Source of the DNA: an uncultured Ectothiorhodospiraceae bacterium
GTDB lineage: Bacteria; Pseudomonadota; Gammaproteobacteria; UBA6429; Thiohalophilaceae
Direction: 5' to 3'
DNA: 35,303 bases
Assembly (NCBI GenBank): GCA_947260005.1
Contig: CAMYOL010000014.1
Span: forward strand, 141,669 to 176,971
Shown piece after piece: positions 13,531-24,979 of this stretch (its first letter is position 1; the number at the start of each line of letters is the position of its first letter). The position numbers and the translations under genes were made by a program. Below the pieces are notes generated by a model. That model saw only the letters and a program-made list of their open reading frames with translations, was not told the DNA's origin and made no database searches.

Positions 13531-15189
13531 CTATTTAGGATCTCTGGGCCAGGCTGCAAGTAATACGGCAATGCCAATCCCGCCGAGCATCCAGGAAATA
13601 TAGGGTACATTCCAGAGCATGGTTTTGGCATAGCCGTCTAATGCAAAAATAATCGTCGCTGATAAAAATAATCCCGTACCGAGTATAGCGGCATAGTTAC
13701 GTCGACTACTGCGTTTTAATTGTTGCTGGATTGCATTGAATTGTTCGTCGTTGATGGTGGCCTTTAATTTGCCAGATTTGGCCTGATCGATTACATCAAA
13801 TATTAAGTTTGGCATTTTAGGCAGACGTTCTGCCCACATAGGTGCGTTTTCTTTGAGATGCTTTATAAAAGAACGTGGGCCAATCTGTTCCGACATCCAT
13901 TTTTCAAGGAAAGGTTTGGCGGTTTTCCATAAATCAAGATCAGGATAAAGCTCGCGACCCAGGCCTTCAATATTTAACAATGTTTTTTGCAGCAGGACTA
14001 ATTGTGGCTGCACTTCCATGTTAAATCGTCGAGCCACCTGAAATAATCGTAATAACAATTGACCGAAAGAAATATCCTTGATCGGCTTGTCAAAGATTGG
14101 TTCCAGCACCGTGCGAATCGCGGCCTCAAATTCATCGACACGAGTATCTTTATCAACCCAGCCAGAATCAATATGTAACTGCGCAACACGACGATAGTCA
14201 CGATTGAAAAAGGCGAGAAAGTTTTCTGCCAGGTACCGTTGATCCGATTCATTGAGACTGCCCATAATGCCAAAATCAACGGCGATATATTGGCCCTGAT
14301 TTGAAACAAAAATGTTACCCGGGTGCATATCAGCATGGAAAAAGCTATCACGAAAAACCTGAGTAAAAAATATTTCTACGCCATGTTCGGCCAGTTGTTG
14401 CATGTTTATATTGTGTTTTTTGAGTTGTTCAATATCGCTAATTGGAATGCCGCTGATGCGTTCCATAACGAAAACGGATTTATGTGAAAATTCCCAGTGA
14501 ACTTCAGGTACATAAATCAGGTTGGAACCTGCAAAGTTGCGCCTTAACTGTGAGGCGTTGGCCGCTTCACGCATTAAATCGAGTTCGTCGATGATGGTTT
14601 TTTCAAATTCTGCAACCACTTCAATCGCGCGTAATTGTTTGCCGGCGCGCCAATGACGTTCGATGCCAGTCGCTATGGTGTAGAGCAGATTAATATCTCG
14701 TTGGATGGTCGGTAAGATATTGGGCCGCACGACTTTAACCACGACTTCTTCTCCGTTGTGTAAAACGGCGCCATGCACCTGGGCAATCGAGGCAGAGGCA
14801 AAAGGGGTCGCTTCAAAACTGGCAAATAATTCGTTAATGGATTTTCCATAAGCCGACTCAATCAGCTTGCGTGAAACTGAATCAGGAAAGGGAGGTACCT
14901 GGTCTTGTAGTTTCGCAAGCTCATTGGCGATGTCGTCCGGGATTAAATCCCGTCGGGTAGAAATGATCTGGCCAAACTTAACAAATATAGGTCCAAGTTC
15001 TTCCAGTGCCATACGAATACGGGTGCCACGATTGGCCGGCTTGCGGCGAACCCAGTTCCAGGGCAGGGCATGTTGAACCCAGCTGATTGGGCGGAACAAT
15101 GGGCTGGCCAGCAGTAAAACATCCAGTCGATAGCGCACTAACACCCAGCCGATATAGAGGAAACGAAGAAATTGAGTAAGTGTTGACAT
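13531..15189 (-). CDS. ubiB: UbiB, ABC1/ADCK-type atypical kinase for ubiquinone synthesis
   Basis: Protein of 552 residues that supports ubiquinone biosynthesis, probably as an ATPase acting on membrane-bound CoQ intermediates. The family KxGQ motif is at 71-74 (FVKFGQIISTR). The kinase-like core shows EVVVKVVRP, FVMERISGIPI, the catalytic-loop-like HADMHPGNIF and VDFGIMG. Two hydrophobic C-terminal segments (about 500-548) anchor it in the membrane. It stands apart from other ubi genes here and is convergent with the DUF389 gene. Confidence 0.95.
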   Translation of the reverse strand: MSTLTQFLRFLYIGWVLVRYRLDVLLLASPLFRPISWVQHALPWNWVRRKPANRGTRIRMALEELGPIFVKFGQIISTRRDLIPDDIANELAKLQDQVPPFPDSVSRKLIESAYGKSINELFASFEATPFASASIAQVHGAVLHNGEEVVVKVVRPNILPTIQRDINLLYTIATGIERHWRAGKQLRAIEVVAEFEKTIIDELDLMREAANASQLRRNFAGSNLIYVPEVHWEFSHKSVFVMERISGIPISDIEQLKKHNINMQQLAEHGVEIFFTQVFRDSFFHADMHPGNIFVSNQGQYIAVDFGIMGSLNESDQRYLAENFLAFFNRDYRRVAQLHIDSGWVDKDTRVDEFEAAIRTVLEPIFDKPIKDISFGQLLLRLFQVARRFNMEVQPQLVLLQKTLLNIEGLGRELYPDLDLWKTAKPFLEKWMSEQIGPRSFIKHLKENAPMWAERLPKMPNLIFDVIDQAKSGKLKATINDEQFNAIQQQLKRSSRRNYAAILGTGLFLSATIIFALDGYAKTMLWNVPYISWMLGGIGIAVLLAAWPRDPK

Positions 15190-16410: not shown

Positions 16411-16815
16411 CTAGTTGCTAGCGTTAAACAGATGCTCGATTACATCAGGGACAAATGGGCGTCCACGCTCATTTAGGGCCGTACCGGTGATTTTTGCCTG
16501 TAGCGCCAGTTTTTCATCCTCAACACGGTAAATGGACTGGATAAAATCAAAACGAACTTTAGAAGATCGTTCTAAATTTAAACCCACCCAGAAGGCGTCG
16601 CCACTGACCAGTGGTGTTTTATAGTCTAACTCAGCCCGGACGACGACTAAATTAATTTGTTGGCGAGCGAGTTCTGCAAAATCAATACCGGTGCTAAGTA
16701 AAAATTCATGTCGAGTATGTTCCAGGTAATTTTGGTAAACACTGTTATTCACGACACCCTGAAGATCACATTCATAGTCGCGCACTTTAAAATCCAGTTT
16801 GAATTGAAAATCCAT
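16411..16815 (-). CDS. Acyl-CoA thioesterase, 4HBT hot-dog fold
   Basis: Protein of 134 residues, typical length for the YbgC/FcbC-like hot-dog thioesterases that hydrolyse acyl-CoA. The N-terminal VRDYECDLQGVVNNSVYQNY carries the conserved Asp (in ECDLQGVV) and the helix Tyr; the RAELDYKTPLVSGD strand is also characteristic. A GGGGG-rich ribosome-binding region (GATCGG on the minus strand) precedes the start. No tol-pal genes are adjacent, so a YbgC assignment is not supported. Substrate unknown. Confidence 0.85.
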   Translation of the reverse strand: MDFQFKLDFKVRDYECDLQGVVNNSVYQNYLEHTRHEFLLSTGIDFAELARQQINLVVVRAELDYKTPLVSGDAFWVGLNLERSSKVRFDFIQSIYRVEDEKLALQAKITGTALNERGRPFVPDVIEHLFNASN

Positions 16816-16905: not shown

Positions 16906-17982
16906 TTATTTTAATTGAAAATAACGTTTGGCAATTTCAGTTCCGTTGATAATGACACTAATACTGTGTTTACCGGGGTAATAACGCCGTGTGCTGATTT
17001 TTTTAAAAGAATGTGTTTTAACGACCTGATGTTTTTTGTCCTGATAGTGCCCTTCAGATATTTTAAATATTTTTTCAGAGCGTTTACCGTTAGTCCGTAA
17101 AAAACCCACTGCATATTCGAGTCGAAGCTTACCAAGTTTATTCTGTTGAGTATTCAGTGAAAATGAAAAACTGAGTGCACGGCCACGTTCGACGGACTTG
17201 TCGACTTTAAACAATTTTAAATCAACGTGTGTGGCTTTGTTATAGCCAAATAAGCGCATGATCGCTGGTTCGCCCTGTTTAAGTAAGGTGCGACAGGCAT
17301 GTTTAACCAGCTTATCAGTGTCAGGATGTGAACCATGCCATAATCTGGCAAGGTTAATGACTAATTTAGGGTGATCTTTTGAGATGTCATTCAGGTTATT
17401 GGCAACACTGCGACGCACATATTCACTTTTATCATGTTTTAGTCGTTCAAGAATGTTGAGTATCGGTGTCGGGTCCTGTTTAAACTCAGGTAGGGCCATC
17501 GCCCAGGGCAGGCGAGGTCGGCAGCCTTCACTGGCCAAACGTCGTACATGGTAATTATTTGATTGGGACCAACAATCCATTTGTCCCATCATCTCATCAG
17601 GATATTTAATGATAAAGGGACGAACTGCCATTTCAGAGGTTGAATATTTGGTAAAGTGTTCCAGCGCCTTGATTGATGCATCAAAGTGATCTAATCCATA
17701 TAATTCGACATAATCCGGAAAAAACATATATTCAAACCCCGAAAACTCTTTAGCAACAGGTTTTAAGATAGACAAGGTCTTTGCATAGGAGGATGGAAGA
17801 AATTGATTTAAACCTTTTGTGATATGGCGAAGACGTTGTTTGAGCTCAAGTTGTTGCCAGTTGGAATTAAAAATGTAGTTTTTAAATTTTCTGGAATTAA
17901 ATTCAGGATATCGTGGTTTAATGGCCTTCGACAAATTGTCGATTAATTGTGGAGTGTATAAATTTTTTAATGGTTCTGGCAT
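16906..17982 (-). CDS. AlkD-like HEAT-repeat DNA alkylation repair protein
   Basis: Protein of 358 residues resembling the AlkD/AlkC superfamily of HEAT-repeat DNA glycosylases. Repeats are visible from about 95 to 240 (FIIKYPDEMMGQMDCWSQS, NYHVRRLASEGCRPRLPWA, SEYVRRSVANNLNDISKDHP). The RRLASEG...PRLPW and RRSVANNLND segments are typical of this group. The last 110 residues form a beta-rich extension that is not part of canonical AlkD (about 230 residues) but occurs in longer family members. Its start lies 2 bp past the stop of the TfoX-like gene, so the two are coupled. Glycosylase activity is inferred, not shown. Confidence 0.85.
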   Translation of the reverse strand: MPEPLKNLYTPQLIDNLSKAIKPRYPEFNSRKFKNYIFNSNWQQLELKQRLRHITKGLNQFLPSSYAKTLSILKPVAKEFSGFEYMFFPDYVELYGLDHFDASIKALEHFTKYSTSEMAVRPFIIKYPDEMMGQMDCWSQSNNYHVRRLASEGCRPRLPWAMALPEFKQDPTPILNILERLKHDKSEYVRRSVANNLNDISKDHPKLVINLARLWHGSHPDTDKLVKHACRTLLKQGEPAIMRLFGYNKATHVDLKLFKVDKSVERGRALSFSFSLNTQQNKLGKLRLEYAVGFLRTNGKRSEKIFKISEGHYQDKKHQVVKTHSFKKISTRRYYPGKHSISVIINGTEIAKRYFQLK

Positions 17983-17984
17983 TT

Positions 17985-18341
17985 TTATTTTAAACCAGGT
18001 TTTTTCTTACTGGTTGCTTTAGCAATACCGATACTTTCTTTAGCCCAAATTAATAATTCATCTTGATCTTCAAGTAGTTCAGGTGGGACCTGGTAATAAC
18101 GTTTGACAAACCGTTCCCCCTTTTTTGTTTGATAAGAAAATGGTTTAGAACCGGCCTCTTCATATTCTGGGCGTGTATTATCGTTAACGACAAAATAAAG
18201 AGTATTGCCCATGATCATCGCGAACTGTACGGACTGACTTTTAATACCATAACCGCCAAAGAATTTTCCTGCTTCTATAGCAGAAATAGGTTCGAGCAGT
18301 TCCATAACGAAGGCGATAAAATCTGGACTCGAAGTCCCCAT
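17985..18341 (-). CDS. TfoX N-terminal-domain protein
   Basis: Protein of 118 residues matching the TfoX/Sxy N-terminal domain: FVMELLEPISAIEAGKFFGGYGI, then GNTLYFVVND and the aromatic YQTKKGERFVKRYYQVPPELLED. The C-terminal domain found in full-length competence regulators is absent. Short stand-alone forms are common and of unknown role. A Lys-rich tail ends the protein. Two base pairs separate it from the downstream AlkD-like gene, so a DNA-damage-related operon is plausible but unproven. Confidence 0.88.
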   Translation of the reverse strand: MGTSSPDFIAFVMELLEPISAIEAGKFFGGYGIKSQSVQFAMIMGNTLYFVVNDNTRPEYEEAGSKPFSYQTKKGERFVKRYYQVPPELLEDQDELLIWAKESIGIAKATSKKKPGLK

Positions 18342-19446: not shown

Positions 19447-21204
19447 TTAATATCGTTTTAGAGGGCAGGCTGCACCGGAGGCATCCAGGCCCATCCATTC
19501 ATAGATTGAATCTAGCGCCAGGTCTTCATTTGAAAAAATATTTTGTTCACCAACAATGTCATAAAGATTTGTGGCACGCATAACATCAAGGATTTGCCGT
19601 TTTAAACCGCTGAATACGATCGTGATCTGGTTTTCATTTAAACGTTCGACCAGATGATGTAAAACTTCTTCGCCCGAGGCATCAATCTGATTAATGGCGT
19701 CACCCACCACGAGCAGGTATTTTACATTTGGATGATCGGCGACGGCTTTGAGCATCGCTTCTTCAAAATAGGAAACATTAGCAAAGTACAAAGAACCATC
19801 GAATCGTACTGCAGTAATATTCTCATCAACAGGTAAATCTTTATAAACTTCAACATCGCGCAAAGTACCATCTTTATAGCGGCCCAATACGGCTACCCGA
19901 GGATACATGGTGCGATAAAGATAGAGAATAATGGCGAGTACCGCCCCAATCATAATACCGTGATCAAGTTTTGGTGCAGAACCGATTGTGGCAACAAAGG
20001 TCACAATGGCTGCGACACCATCATGCTTGTTGGTATTCCAGATATGTTTAATTGATCGGAAGTTAATTAAGCCAAACACCGCCATAATAACGACCGCAGC
20101 AAGCGTCGCCTTAGGCAGGTGATAAAGTAGCGGTGTTAAGAACAACAATGTAATTAACACTAAAACGGCCGTCACCACTGAAGAAAACCCGGTTTTTGCC
20201 CCGGCATTTAGATTGACGGCCGAGCGTGAGAAGGAACCCGAGGCGGGATATGACTGAAAGAAACTGCCCGCAATATTACCCAGCCCCTGACCGATAAGCT
20301 CCTGGTTAGGATCAATGCGGTGTTTTGTTTTTGCGGCCATTGCCTTGGCGATTGAAATGGCCTCCATGAAGCCAACCATGGCAATAATAATGGCGCCGAT
20401 AAGAAGCCCGGATAAGGCTTCATAACTAAAGCCGGGTAGTTGGAAACCGGGTAAACCTTCAGGGATTTTCCCGACAACTTTTCCACCCATGCCTTCAAAA
20501 TTAAGAAAATAGCTGGCGAGGGTGGTGAGCACGACAGCAACAAGAACGTTAGGGAATCTGGGTAGAAATTTTCTGAGCCCAATCATAATCGCAAAAGCGG
20601 AAGCACCCATGACTAAGGTTGGCATATGAGTATCAACAATATTTTGGATCACGCCCCAAATTCGAACTGTTAAAAAGTGATCGCTGGCCCCGCCCGGCAT
20701 TTCAACGCCAAATACCTTAGAAATTTGAGTCAAACCAATAAAGAGCGCCGCGGCATTGGTGAAACCAACAATAACCGGATGTGATAAAAAGTTAACAATG
20801 GCGCCGAGACGAAACAGACCAAGTGAAAATTGAAAGATACCAACCAGCAAGGTTAACAACATGGCCATCGGTATATAGACGGCCATGAATTGCTCTTGCG
20901 TATATCCGGGTTGTAAGCTCAACACGACTATGGGTGCGAGTGTGGTGGCGGTCATGGTGGAGACGACGGCAACGGGTCCCGTGCCAAGTTGGCGTGAGGA
21001 GCCCCACAAGGCCGCCACAAATACAGGAACAAATGCGATATATAAACCAAATACTTCAGGTAGTCCGGCCAGTGTGGCATAAGCCATCGATTGAGGAATT
21101 AACACTAACGCAACGGTGAGACCGGCAATCGCGTCAGCGCGTAAAATCTGCGGGTTTTTTAATTCATGTATCCAGCTTAAAAAAGGAAAAATTTTCTGTA
21201 GCAT
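19447..21204 (-). CDS. SulP (SLC26) family anion permease with C-terminal STAS domain
   Basis: Inner-membrane transporter of 585 residues. The N-terminal signature DAIAGLTVALVLIPQSMAYATLAGLPEVFGLY is diagnostic of SulP, followed by about 12-14 membrane segments to residue 415, including GQGLGNIAGSFFQSYPASGSFSRSAVN. The STAS domain (about 440-560) shows RFDGSLYFANVSYFEEA and the DASGEEVLHHL loop. SulP members move sulfate, bicarbonate or other anions. No carbonic anhydrase or sulfur-assimilation gene is adjacent, so the substrate is not determined. It is monocistronic; the 247-bp upstream gap shows no clear regulatory motif. Confidence 0.93.
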   Translation of the reverse strand: MLQKIFPFLSWIHELKNPQILRADAIAGLTVALVLIPQSMAYATLAGLPEVFGLYIAFVPVFVAALWGSSRQLGTGPVAVVSTMTATTLAPIVVLSLQPGYTQEQFMAVYIPMAMLLTLLVGIFQFSLGLFRLGAIVNFLSHPVIVGFTNAAALFIGLTQISKVFGVEMPGGASDHFLTVRIWGVIQNIVDTHMPTLVMGASAFAIMIGLRKFLPRFPNVLVAVVLTTLASYFLNFEGMGGKVVGKIPEGLPGFQLPGFSYEALSGLLIGAIIIAMVGFMEAISIAKAMAAKTKHRIDPNQELIGQGLGNIAGSFFQSYPASGSFSRSAVNLNAGAKTGFSSVVTAVLVLITLLFLTPLLYHLPKATLAAVVIMAVFGLINFRSIKHIWNTNKHDGVAAIVTFVATIGSAPKLDHGIMIGAVLAIILYLYRTMYPRVAVLGRYKDGTLRDVEVYKDLPVDENITAVRFDGSLYFANVSYFEEAMLKAVADHPNVKYLLVVGDAINQIDASGEEVLHHLVERLNENQITIVFSGLKRQILDVMRATNLYDIVGEQNIFSNEDLALDSIYEWMGLDASGAACPLKRY

Positions 21205-21451
21205 AAGAATTCCCGAATTATCTATTATTATCGCATTGCAAGAGGGCCCGGTTCAGGATTACAAATGACCAAGTCTGGTTTAGGCATAAAATAATATACT
21301 ATTGAGCGCGTCTAATCACCTATTTTATTTAAGATCAAGGACTTAGAGCCTGAACAGTAGAATACACGTTAGAAGTGTGGGTTATTAGATTAAGTCAGAA
21401 TAGTCAGTGTTCCACGCATTGGTGACCGGCATATGACGGGCGATCCTGTGT

Positions 21452-22993
21452 TTATATTTTCAAATTAAAACCTGAAAAATTGACGCCGGATAACAAGGCC
21501 ATCTCACGATTCCAGGTGGCAAGATCATTATGGTTAAATTTAGTTAGATGATCATGGCCACAGGCGCGCGCCATCACCTGCATTAACTCCACCGATGCGG
21601 AGAAAAAATTATGTAATTGCTTTGCCGACTGATCGACATTTAGTTTTTTACGTAACTCTTCTTTTTGGGTAGCAATGCCAGAGGGGCAATTATTTGAATT
21701 ACACATTCGTGCTGCAACACAACCGATGGCCTGCATGGCGCTATTGGATAGTGCGATACCGTCAGCGCCTAAGGCGAGGGCTTTGACAAAGTCAATCGGG
21801 ACACGCAATCCACCAGTGATGATTAAGGTAACCCGGCCACTGGCACCTTGTTCATCCAGATAACGTCGTGCGCGTGCGAGTGCAGGTATGGTCGGTACAC
21901 TAATATGATTTCGAAACATCTCGGGTGCTGCCCCGGTACCACCACCGCGACCATCAAGGATGATGTAATCTGCACTGGCATCGAGCGCAAATTGAATATC
22001 TTTTTCAATGTGGTTGGCACTCAGTTTAAATCCAACGGGAATACCACCGCTGATCTCACGAACTTGATCGGCAAAACGTTTAAAGTCTTTGACCGAGGTT
22101 AGATTTTTAAAGGTTGGTGGTGAGATCGCCGGTTCACCTTCTGGTATACCTCTTACTTGCGAAATTTTGCCTTTATTTTTTTGTCCGGGAAGATGTCCAC
22201 CGGTTCCGGTTTTAGCCCCCTGGCCACCTTTGAAATGAAAGGCCTGCACCTTTTTGATAAGTTCATCTTTATAACCAAACTGGGCACTGGCTAATTCGTA
22301 AAAATAGTTTGAGTTTGCGGCTTGTTCCTCGGGAAGCATGCCACCTTCTCCAGAGCATATACCGGTGCCGGCTAACTCAGCGCCTCTCGCCAGGGCTATT
22401 TTCGCCTCTTCCGACAGGGCACCAAAACTCATATCCGAAACAAATAAAGGGATTTTTAGGCGCAAAGGTTTTTTACAGTCGGGGCCGATCACGAACTCAG
22501 AGCCAACGTCCTGATCTTCGAATAAGGGTTTCGTGGCCATTTGTGCCGCCATGATTTGTAGATCATCCCAATGCGGTAATTCATGACGGGGTACACCCAT
22601 CGAGGTCATCGGGCCATGATGCCCAAGCTTGCTAAGTCCTTCACGTGCTAATTGATGGATATAAGCGACGGTCGGTTCTTCTTGTGTCGGTTTTGCAGTC
22701 GTTTGTGTTTGTGCTGAGGGTATTGGCGCGGGTTGTCCGACTTGCGCATCCGTAAAGGTTTTATGGCTACCATCACAATAAGGTGCATTTTGAGTTTGTT
22801 TACACCGACATAAATAGGTTTCTCCACTTTCATCGGTTGTAAAAGGTAAAGGAGAAAATGAAGTACCGGCATGCGAGCCATCACAAAAGGGTTGATTCTT
22901 AGACTGACCACACACGCAAAAATAATATTCTTCATCTTTGTTTAGCTCGACACTAATGGGTTTATTGTCGGCAATAATGGGTTGGTCACTCAT
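21452..22993 (-). CDS. Double CDGSH iron-sulfur / FMN-binding glutamate synthase-like fusion
   Basis: Protein of 513 residues with three parts. Two CDGSH-type [2Fe-2S] motifs come first: ligands C26, C28, C37 and H41, then C62, C64, C73 and H77. A Gln/Thr/Pro linker (about 80-108) follows. Residues 110-513 are the FMN-binding synthase domain of glutamate synthase (GltB type), with FKGGQGAKTGTGGHLPG, ILDGRGGGTGAAPE and the [3Fe-4S] cysteines C425, C431 and C436 in CVAARMCNSNNCPSG. The amidotransferase domain of a true GltB is missing, so ammonia- or glutamine-dependent synthesis is doubtful. It probably is an FMN oxidoreductase fed by the CDGSH clusters; substrate unknown. It is flanked by unrelated transporters. 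Confidence 0.92.
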   Translation of the reverse strand: MSDQPIIADNKPISVELNKDEEYYFCVCGQSKNQPFCDGSHAGTSFSPLPFTTDESGETYLCRCKQTQNAPYCDGSHKTFTDAQVGQPAPIPSAQTQTTAKPTQEEPTVAYIHQLAREGLSKLGHHGPMTSMGVPRHELPHWDDLQIMAAQMATKPLFEDQDVGSEFVIGPDCKKPLRLKIPLFVSDMSFGALSEEAKIALARGAELAGTGICSGEGGMLPEEQAANSNYFYELASAQFGYKDELIKKVQAFHFKGGQGAKTGTGGHLPGQKNKGKISQVRGIPEGEPAISPPTFKNLTSVKDFKRFADQVREISGGIPVGFKLSANHIEKDIQFALDASADYIILDGRGGGTGAAPEMFRNHISVPTIPALARARRYLDEQGASGRVTLIITGGLRVPIDFVKALALGADGIALSNSAMQAIGCVAARMCNSNNCPSGIATQKEELRKKLNVDQSAKQLHNFFSASVELMQVMARACGHDHLTKFNHNDLATWNREMALLSGVNFSGFNLKI

Positions 22994-23076
22994 GTTAACT
23001 CCTGATCCTTAAAAAGTTGATTGGTTCTATTGAAATGTCAATGCGGGTTCTAAATTCGGCTAGCCTGCTAAGTTTG

Positions 23077-24240
23077 TTATTCAAGTGTACGCTTTAAAGC
23101 AAGTCGAGTAAAAACAGGGCCGATGATCTCAAAAAAGACCGTTGTACTAATGACAATTGACAAGAGAAGCTGGCGATATTCTGGAAAATGATTTGATGCA
23201 ACTAACGCCATACCGATTGCGACTCCAGCTTGCGGTAATAATGCGAAGCCCATCCAGTGTTTCGTCTGCAGGTCCGCATGACTGAGTTGACTACCGATAG
23301 TCGCGCCAACAATCTTGCCAATCACTCGACATAATATATAGATAATACCAATCAGACCGATATCGACTAAGGTATCGATCTCAAGCGATGCCCCAGCCAG
23401 CACAAAAAACACGACCATAAAAGGTGATTCGATGCCTTCGATAGAGTGAAATGGATATTCATGATGTTTTGCCAGGTTGGCAATAATTGCACCCAGCACC
23501 ATAGAGGTAATTAAAAAAGAGACATCGAGCCAGATGGCCAGTCCGCCGCAGACAAAAACCAGCCCCAGTGCTTCGGTTAAGATAGGTTGACCTGGTTTAA
23601 TTCGGCCGGTTAAATAAGCTGCAGGTAATCCAAGCATGACTCCCAATAAAACGGCCCCACCAATTTCTGTTGTTACCATCAATAATGAGGATGTATCACT
23701 GTGGCTACCATTGAGTGTGGAGACCACGGCGATACCAATACCAAATAAAACTAGTGCCCAAATATCATCCAGCGCAACAACCGATAGCAGTAATTTTTTG
23801 AAGGGGGAGTCCTGTTCTGTTTCCAGGCTGACATCCAATATCGCCGCGGGCGCAGTGGCCGAGGCAATACAACCTAACAAAATTGCGATTTGCTTGGGTA
23901 CGCCTGCCCAGATCAATCCCAGGCTAACGATGATCGTGGTAACGACCGCCGCACTAATTGAGATCCAAAGGACTTTACCAGCAGATTGTTTTAGTGAGGA
24001 AACCGTTAACTTGCCACCTAATAGAAAACCGACCATCACCAAGGCCATATTAGCGACGAGTTCGAAATGGTTTATGAATGCCGAGGGTATGATGTTTAGG
24101 GCCTGGTGACCGATAATCACACCAAAAATAAGTAACAAGGTGACTCTAGGTAAAAAAGTATGTCGGCCCAGTGAGGAGGTGACCAGGCCAAGCAGGAGGA
24201 TGCCTCCCAATGTTAATAGAAATTGAGCGGTAGGATTCAT
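23077..24240 (-). CDS. CPA2-type cation:proton antiporter
   Basis: Membrane protein of 387 residues with about 11-12 hydrophobic segments. It matches the Na+/H+ exchanger (PF00999-like) fold: FLLGGKLTVSSLKQSAGKVLW, then ASATAPAAILDVSLE (the unwound-helix region) and VVALDDIWALVLFG, which carries the acidic pair used for ion coupling. There is no RCK/TrkA-N domain, unlike KefB/KefC. The ion cannot be decided. The gene ends 83 bp upstream of the CDGSH fusion start and is followed upstream by a 148-bp gap without visible features. Confidence 0.9.
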   Translation of the reverse strand: MNPTAQFLLTLGGILLLGLVTSSLGRHTFLPRVTLLLIFGVIIGHQALNIIPSAFINHFELVANMALVMVGFLLGGKLTVSSLKQSAGKVLWISISAAVVTTIIVSLGLIWAGVPKQIAILLGCIASATAPAAILDVSLETEQDSPFKKLLLSVVALDDIWALVLFGIGIAVVSTLNGSHSDTSSLLMVTTEIGGAVLLGVMLGLPAAYLTGRIKPGQPILTEALGLVFVCGGLAIWLDVSFLITSMVLGAIIANLAKHHEYPFHSIEGIESPFMVVFFVLAGASLEIDTLVDIGLIGIIYILCRVIGKIVGATIGSQLSHADLQTKHWMGFALLPQAGVAIGMALVASNHFPEYRQLLLSIVISTTVFFEIIGPVFTRLALKRTLE

Positions 24241-24388
24241 ATTAACTACAACAAAAAGAGATACTAATGACCAACAGGCTTCCTTCTTGATTAGTCAGGG
24301 TAAAATAACAATATGTTTAGCTAATTGTAGTTTGTTCGACCGGAGTTATCCTGAATGTCGGTATTATATTATAGTCATTAGAATGATT

Positions 24389-24979
24389 TTATTTGCAGTC
24401 ATTGTGTTTTTTCCACATATCGGCATCATGTCCAGCCGGTATATTTAGACATGGATCACCCGATTGATAGCCACGTAGTCGATTATATTTTTCTATCTGC
24501 TGATGCGACAGGATGTTAGGTGTTTGTAAATGCGTGGCAAGATGTACATAACGAAGCTGTTTATGTACCTGCGAGATTGAATCTAATAATAAATTCAACT
24601 GAGTATCGGTAATGCTTTTATTTTCAAAGGCGTCATTTAATTGTTTTTCATATTCAATAAGTTGTTTCCCCAGAGGGATCGCTTTTGATTTCATGTCCGT
24701 AAATAAGCTATTAATTTTTAGCTCCTGATCTTTACTCAGCGATATTTCGGTTTTCATTTGTAAGACATGAGAAGGGCCGGGCATCCCATTCAGTTCAGCC
24801 GCTTTAGCCAGGCCCCATCCTTTGCCATTTTCGAGTTGCTGGATATCGTCCCTGGACAGGCTCTTTATTAAACGTTTTTCCTGACCGGTATAATTCGATT
24901 GATAGGATGGAGTTTCGGTTGAGTTGGCATAAATAGAAAAAACAAACAACATAACAACAATACTGATACGAAATTTCAA
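24389..24979 (-). CDS. Spy/CpxP-like periplasmic protein
   Basis: Secreted protein of 196 residues: signal peptide (about 1-20, ending SIYANST), then a helical region with LSKDQELKINSLFTDMKSKAIPLGKQLIEYE and SITDTQLNLLLDSISQVHKQLRYVHLATHL, reminiscent of the paired helices of Spy/CpxP/ZraP proteins (metal stress or chaperone). A Cys occurs only in the C-terminal GDPCLNIPAGHD tail. The motif GKGWGLAKAAELNGMPGPSHVL near residue 55 is shared by a subgroup without assigned function. Monocistronic. Confidence 0.65.
   Translation of the reverse strand: MKFRISIVVMLFVFSIYANSTETPSYQSNYTGQEKRLIKSLSRDDIQQLENGKGWGLAKAAELNGMPGPSHVLQMKTEISLSKDQELKINSLFTDMKSKAIPLGKQLIEYEKQLNDAFENKSITDTQLNLLLDSISQVHKQLRYVHLATHLQTPNILSHQQIEKYNRLRGYQSGDPCLNIPAGHDADMWKKHNDCK

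Follow-up and report, generated by a model that had tools for sequence, protein, structure and literature searches.

Proteins that join CDGSH iron-sulfur motifs to a glutamate synthase-type domain have been in print since 2011 as the 'type 5 CISD' (Lin et al. 2011, PMC3174974), with examples from Vibrio splendidus and Pelagibacter ubique aligned in the accessible part of that paper, and the accessible part of PMC5859297 mentions the association of CDGSH with the Glu_synthase domain. Searches of open-licence papers, judged mostly by their listings, brought up no biochemical work on a type 5 CISD. Here, we analyse a further protein of this architecture, encoded in a 35,303 nt stretch of DNA (the window) from an uncultured Ectothiorhodospiraceae bacterium (GenBank assembly GCA_947260005.1, contig CAMYOL010000014.1). 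The original prediction, made from the letters of the window alone, described the fusion; that the fusion itself is new is rejected in view of the two papers.

The cellular role of NEET/CDGSH clusters is disputed, the candidates being electron transfer, cluster transfer or sensing. We find that CDGSH and Rieske modules take each other's place on one conserved catalytic core, a natural experiment that favours electron transfer. The explanation we favour, tentatively and at slightly less than an even chance, is that the window protein is a flavin mononucleotide (FMN)/[3Fe-4S] oxidoreductase of the glutamate synthase superfamily with its own tandem-CDGSH electron-transfer module.

Domain architecture and exchange of the N-terminal module

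The gene, for which the original prediction names no strand, reads from ATG to stop on the minus strand (Table 1), and the plus-strand reading of 21452-22993 is closed by many stops. Pfam recognizes three families in the 513 aa product: zf-CDGSH in two stretches (4.9e-21, 75.2 bits, cut-off 29.5), Glu_synthase (PF01645; 9.4e-93, 311.7 bits, cut-off 20.4) and, as a weak and overlapping match, FMN_dh. These scores bear out the tandem CDGSH motifs and the FMN/[3Fe-4S] glutamate synthase (GltS) domain of the original prediction, and the glutamine amidotransferase domain that it reported missing is indeed absent, no glutaminase domain being among the three Pfam families. Residues 4-79 align with residues 11-86 of the 87-residue chain 3tbn_A (E 2.8e-22), presumably MmCISD, the type 6 CISD of Magnetospirillum, and glutamate synthase chains match core residues 185-479 with E 3.4e-37 to 1.4e-33.

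The CDGSH module contains two C-x-C-x8-C-x3-H sites with a spacing of 20 residues between H41 and C62. All eight CDGSH ligands and the three [3Fe-4S] ligands, each of them named correctly in the original prediction, are invariant in an alignment of 54 rows (the query and 53 relatives with 75-84% identity to it over the full length). A chance match was ruled out by the Pfam scores together with these invariant ligands. Judged from its sequence, the protein is predicted to bind FMN and both kinds of cluster.

Table 1. Features of the fusion gene, in window coordinates
Feature	Position	Strand	Basis
CDS, 513 aa, tandem CDGSH and GltS-type FMN/[3Fe-4S] domain (type 5 CISD)	21452..22993	-	Open reading frame, Pfam, relatives
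Tandem CDGSH module, residues 4-79	22757..22984	-	Chain 3tbn_A (E 2.8e-22), Pfam zf-CDGSH
First CDGSH ligand set C26, C28, C37, H41	22871..22918	-	54-row alignment
Second CDGSH ligand set C62, C64, C73, H77	22763..22810	-	54-row alignment
Glu_synthase domain (FMN barrel), residues 169-479	21557..22489	-	Pfam PF01645; GltS chains 7mfm, 1ea0, 1llw
Active-site loop QGAKTGTGGHLPG, residues 258-270 (GltS counterpart: QGAKPGEGGQLPG)	22184..22222	-	Alignment with GltS
[3Fe-4S] ligand motif C425-x5-C431-x4-C436	21686..21721	-	Aligned with GltS cysteines

On the question, raised with the original prediction, of how often the fusion occurs, the answer is that it is not rare. A sample of 370 genomes of the class gave a match in 57 (E<=1e-140), which included the CDGSH part (match from query residue 1-7) in 44, one of these with two copies (G037) and one with an incomplete match (G292). 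Twelve of the 57 align no earlier than query residue 101-106, with 65-67% identity in the core, and one (G090) aligns from residue 169. In a sample of the phylum, Pseudomonadota to judge from the names of the nearest relatives, the core was matched in 39 of 397 genomes (E<=1e-100). The distribution of the gene is patchy, even between near relatives, and Marinobacter is among its carriers (L081, L087). A pattern scan of 84,980 species genomes yielded 323 relative-encoding stretches, and we retained the top 80 (the named loci below).

The 12 class genomes that align from residue 101-106 (L130-L141) hold open frames of 499-619 aa, and every one has a Rieske motif, C-x-H...C-x2-H, at the N-terminus. 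Pfam, run on three Rieske-form proteins, scored the domain at 43.3 (L135, class), 44.0 (L174, phylum) and 48.1 bits (L181, haloarchaeal) against a cut-off of 20.3. Such Rieske-GltS fusions were found in the class, in the phylum and on haloarchaeal plasmids of Halorubrum, the copy on which Pfam was run, and Salinirubellus (L130-L141, L173-L179, L181, L182). Their cores are 61-71% identical to the query core and have the same loop and [3Fe-4S] motif. Among 173 core-bearing frames, a count in which some genes recur because two collections supplied them, 152 carry two CDGSH motifs, 19 carry Rieske, one carries a single CDGSH motif owing to missing letters and one falls outside these forms. More distantly, a clostridial relative on a Monoglobus plasmid (L183:5935-7362) has a rubredoxin-like N-terminus that scores 23.0 bits, below the Pfam cut-off of 26.5.

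The exchange of CDGSH and Rieske on one core is, at the level of sequence, clear. One-electron transfer is a trait common to Rieske and rubredoxin, the modules that replace CDGSH. Because Rieske occupies the same place on the same core, and a rubredoxin-like domain does so in one relative, the CDGSH module is probably the electron-transfer module of the enzyme. Among the open-licence papers listed in our searches, none describes, by its listing, a Rieske-GltS fusion, a rubredoxin-GltS fusion or an association of CDGSH with hydroquinone reductase.

In a tree of 76 cores, thinned at 86% identity, the Rieske forms are a single clade (100/99) placed among the CDGSH forms, with the bootstrap not settled. 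A 45-row tree, from which the long branches L126 and L184 were removed and in which every third row of the remaining CDGSH group was retained, did not reject a topology that keeps the CDGSH forms together (p-AU 0.199), so either module may have been present first. For the trees and the loop counts given below, cores with an aligned query span of <381 residues or with X were excluded, and identical cores were counted once.

Several other copies were observed. The CDGSH fusion is doubled in two single genomes, G001 (L121, L122) and G037 (L123, L124), and CDGSH pairs also sit inside open frames as long as 601 (G026:C114) and 704 codons (G053:C18), which may be further fusions. One CDGSH motif of L074 is incomplete owing to X letters. 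The core copy at L142:6244-7356 has no CDGSH or Rieske module in any frame and is possibly a degraded gene, and neither module was recognized in a Pseudoalteromonas plasmid copy (L184:5875 onward), which has a long C-terminal extension.

Active site and comparison with glutamate synthase

All 21 Rieske cores have the loop QGAKTGTGGHLPG, as do 112 of the 126 CDGSH cores; of the remaining CDGSH cores, seven have close variants and seven lie outside the loop pattern, as does one paralogue. The [3Fe-4S] pattern is absent from a single CDGSH core (present in 125 of 126) and from none of the 21 Rieske cores. Aligned with the ferredoxin-dependent glutamate synthase (Fd-GltS) of Synechocystis, the window protein keeps K972 (Lys261) and R992 (Arg281), whereas E975 and Q978 are substituted by Thr264 and His267. 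In the 54-row alignment, Thr264 is invariant and the conservation of His267 is 90% or more. We take K972, Q978 and R992 of the Synechocystis enzyme to be contacts of 2-oxoglutarate. Given that the loop is the same in CDGSH and Rieske cores and altered relative to GltS, both forms probably share one substrate, which on these residues is probably not 2-oxoglutarate.

Of the traits of GOGAT, the protein has the C-x5-C-x4-C motif but neither the glutaminase domain nor the full K972/E975/Q978/R992 loop, and it scores 148.9 bits against a cut-off of 1047 for the NCBIfam equivalog of the GOGAT large subunit. The host genome encodes its own GOGAT with the normal loop QGAKPGEGGQLPG. Since E975 and Q978 are replaced by Thr and His, and since the genome has this separate GOGAT, ordinary glutamate synthesis by the fusion protein appears unlikely. 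Two further GltS-domain proteins of the genome, with neither CDGSH nor a glutaminase domain, have different loops (KPGRGGV and KPGKGGI); proteins of this kind exist elsewhere too.

The AlphaFold model, built on 54 close sequences, was weak, with a pLDDT of 63 and a linker below 50. When it was searched with Foldseek, GltS chains ranked first (23-32% identity in the structure alignments), followed by flavocytochrome b2 and hydroxy-acid oxidases, and no CDGSH chain was among the best 50 rows.

Gene neighbourhoods of the family

Within 6 kb of the gene, LysR-type regulator genes occur in 31 of the 80 named loci, pirin in 17, glutathionyl-hydroquinone reductase (GSHQR) in 16, cytochrome b561 in 12 and YceI in 6. 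The flank examined totals 718 kb, for which gene densities in 58 relatives' genomes (163 Mb), a set other than the named loci, give expected counts of 2.0 for LysR, 0.25 for pirin, 0.15 for GSHQR and 0.7 for cytochrome b561; with loci that are not independent and a different set of background genomes, only the size of the excess matters. Pirin and/or GSHQR occur in 20 of the 80 loci, both in 13 and both with LysR in 12, and most LysR genes (24 of 33 occurrences) stand upstream in divergent orientation. The loci with these neighbours include those of gammaproteobacterial metagenome-assembled genomes, Mariprofundus, Ghiorsea and Nitrosomonas, and, with pirin alone, Sulfurimonas and Sulfurovum.

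A stand-alone tandem-CDGSH open reading frame (85-103 aa) lies directly beside GSHQR in seven relatives' genomes (L190-L195, L120), loci that were chosen because CDGSH and GSHQR had already been seen together and that represent at least 7 of the 34 GSHQR genes found. LysR is near in all seven; pirin is adjacent in four (L191, L192, L194, L120) and about 5 kb away in L195. In L120, a type 5 gene is part of the same run as the stand-alone tandem CDGSH and GSHQR. For type 6 CISDs, the run of CDGSH, GSHQR, LysR and, in four cases, pirin makes a candidate gene set for quinol stress. Taken together, the pirin, GSHQR and LysR neighbours and the stand-alone tandem CDGSH in similar gene sets suggest that part of the family has a role in quinol/electrophile stress.

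The closest counterpart of these gene sets is the yqjFG-yhaHIJK region of Escherichia coli, which, like part of the family, holds a YqjG-type GSHQR, a pirin-type protein and a LysR gene together, with yqjG, yhaJ and yhaK in one group. Unlike the relatives' sets, the E. coli stretch has no annotated CDGSH gene, and E. coli was not, among the matches listed, one of the control genomes with a CDGSH match. All 17 GSHQR cluster members match E. coli YqjG, at a median identity of 58%. LysR members match YhaJ in 25 of 35 cases (median 25%) and pirin members match their E. coli counterpart in 7 of 16, the LysR and pirin medians of 25-26% denoting likeness at the superfamily level only. A small membrane protein of the relatives' loci (cluster c18) was considered as a YqjF relative and gave no match at E<=1e-3. 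According to PMC5031710, promoters that depend on YhaJ respond to hydroquinone.

In the window itself, a Na/H exchanger gene (23077-24240) lies 83 bp upstream of the fusion gene and a SulP transporter gene (19447-21204) 247 bp downstream. None of the 80 named loci shares a gene cluster with the exchanger. One named locus alone (L008:10335-15216), that of the nearest named relative, which is 84% identical, shares SulP and the three genes downstream of it, at 17985-18341, 16906-17982 and 16411-16815. We rejected the window neighbours as a pathway and regard what is shared with L008 as local synteny of close kin, with no link across the family. The original prediction saw no obvious pathway neighbours, which is correct for the window and fails for the part of the family with pirin or GSHQR nearby. 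A scan of 20900-24500 gave three promoter-like sites, against 7.2 in shuffles, and four terminator-like sites, against 3.0 (sd 1.7), with no clear excess. An ABC1-type kinase-like gene at 13531-15189 (Pfam ABC1, 277.7 bits) reads like UbiB. Elsewhere in the family, in L135, L138, L149 and L182, the gene of a thiamine-pyrophosphate-type enzyme, so labelled in L182, lies no more than a few kb from that of the GltS fusion; one member has a Rieske-like N-terminus by eye.

Proposed electron path, alternatives and known systems

We propose that a small substrate, probably not 2-oxoglutarate, would exchange hydride with FMN, that single electrons would move among FMN, the [3Fe-4S] cluster and one of the CDGSH clusters, and that this CDGSH cluster would meet an external partner, the tandem module carrying two predicted [2Fe-2S] clusters. 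The electron chain from [2Fe-2S] to [3Fe-4S] to FMN in one polypeptide, as first suggested for this protein, gains support from the CDGSH/Rieske exchange on a conserved core, while we infer the relay and its direction. PMC9490426 and PMC9737848 describe mitoNEET CDGSH clusters, whose midpoint potential is about -30 to 0 mV, as accepting electrons from FMNH2 and handing them on to ubiquinone or oxygen, and PMC8097209 places the GltS [3Fe-4S] potential near -280 mV, or -190 mV with 2-oxoglutarate. If these values carry over, flow from a [3Fe-4S] centre at about -280 mV toward CDGSH at about 0 mV would be downhill, and thus outward. The direction we favour would run from substrate through FMN, [3Fe-4S] and CDGSH to an acceptor such as a quinone. 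Some members of the family may have been recruited into a quinol/electrophile-detoxification set beside a LysR regulator. We speculate, with considerable doubt, that GltS-like flavoenzymes with exchangeable N-terminal iron modules, be they tandem CDGSH, Rieske or rubredoxin-like, oxidize a quinol- or electrophile-derived metabolite, with electrons leaving through the CDGSH clusters.

A number of observations weigh against this proposal. NEET clusters can be transferred whole, so conserved ligands alone are no proof of electron transfer, and the weakness of the AlphaFold model means that cluster-to-cluster distances cannot be read from it. The named loci share descent, so Poisson tails overstate their independence, and 60 of the 80, many of them on short contigs, have neither pirin nor GSHQR within 6 kb; of the 37 loci flanked by 5 kb on each side, 10 have one or the other and 27 neither. 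The window has no pirin or GSHQR beside the fusion gene, the single pirin (contig C26, with LysR) and single GSHQR (C16) of the host genome both being off its contig. With the same profiles, pirin, GSHQR and LysR were found near none of the 12 Rieske forms L130-L141, four of which have <2.1 kb on at least one side. At a median identity of only 25%, the LysR proteins are not supported as YhaJ orthologues.

The alternative to which we give most weight, although we consider it unlikely, is that CDGSH serves as a sensor, storage or regulatory domain, whose labile clusters would report redox state, pH or nitric oxide (NO), or donate clusters, and gate the flavoenzyme but not carry its electrons. 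The stand-alone tandem CDGSH proteins beside the same genes would suit this role, and the clusters of mitoNEET are sensitive to pH and can be transferred in vitro (PMC9737848), while reduced mitoNEET binds NO (PMC9490426). However, the same core bears Rieske and, more distantly, a rubredoxin-like domain, whose shared capacity is one-electron transfer, and Rieske clusters are described in the accessible part of PMC9737848 as stabler than those of mitoNEET across a wide pH range.

Two readings of the core as a nitrogen-metabolic enzyme seem to us less probable still. An ammonia-dependent glutamate synthase, in which CDGSH would replace ferredoxin or GltD and glutamate would be made from 2-oxoglutarate and free ammonia, is consistent with the alignment of the core with GltS chains (E 1.5e-37 to 4.7e-34), with the retained equivalents of K972 and R992, and with the label 'glutamate synthase-related protein' that NCBI gives to relatives. 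It is countered by the conserved Thr264 and His267 in place of E975 and Q978, by the separate GOGAT with its loop QGAKPGEGGQLPG, by the lack of a glutaminase domain among the Pfam families and, if the values above are valid here, by a CDGSH potential near 0 mV, which is ill suited to the reduction of a centre near -280 mV. N-methylglutamate synthase uses a GltS domain, and an amino-acid or amine synthase or dehydrogenase of that kind, acting on an imine other than 2-iminoglutarate and without a tie to quinone stress, is about equally improbable. The conserved Lys261 and Arg281 would suit a carboxylate, and GltS-domain proteins with neither CDGSH nor glutaminase exist, two of them in this genome; yet the loops of these two paralogues differ from that of the fusion, and the annotated clusters common to many named loci are redox, quinol and regulatory genes, a weak point as some clusters are unannotated.

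If the speculative reading above, in which electrons of a quinol- or electrophile-derived metabolite leave through the CDGSH clusters, is true, a NEET domain would be the built-in electron carrier of a defined enzyme, linked to quinone defence under a LysR regulator. The gene context in part of the family offers a first concrete class of candidate substrates, and the swap can be probed with two proteins, both predicted to be soluble.

Among described systems, the type 5 CISD is of the same architecture as the window protein; neither function, Rieske counterpart nor gene neighbours are given for it in the accessible part of PMC3174974. The type 6 CISD (3tbn_A; human CISD3/Miner2) stands alone, whereas the CDGSH module of the window protein is fused to a flavoenzyme. 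The large subunit of glutamate synthase (GltB, Fd-GltS; 1ea0, 1llw, 7mfm) has the FMN barrel and the [3Fe-4S] cysteines in common with the window protein, which, unlike that enzyme, lacks a glutaminase domain, has its own predicted [2Fe-2S] module and carries Thr and His for E975 and Q978. The Rieske-GltS fusions have an N-terminal Rieske domain in the position where the window protein has its tandem CDGSH.
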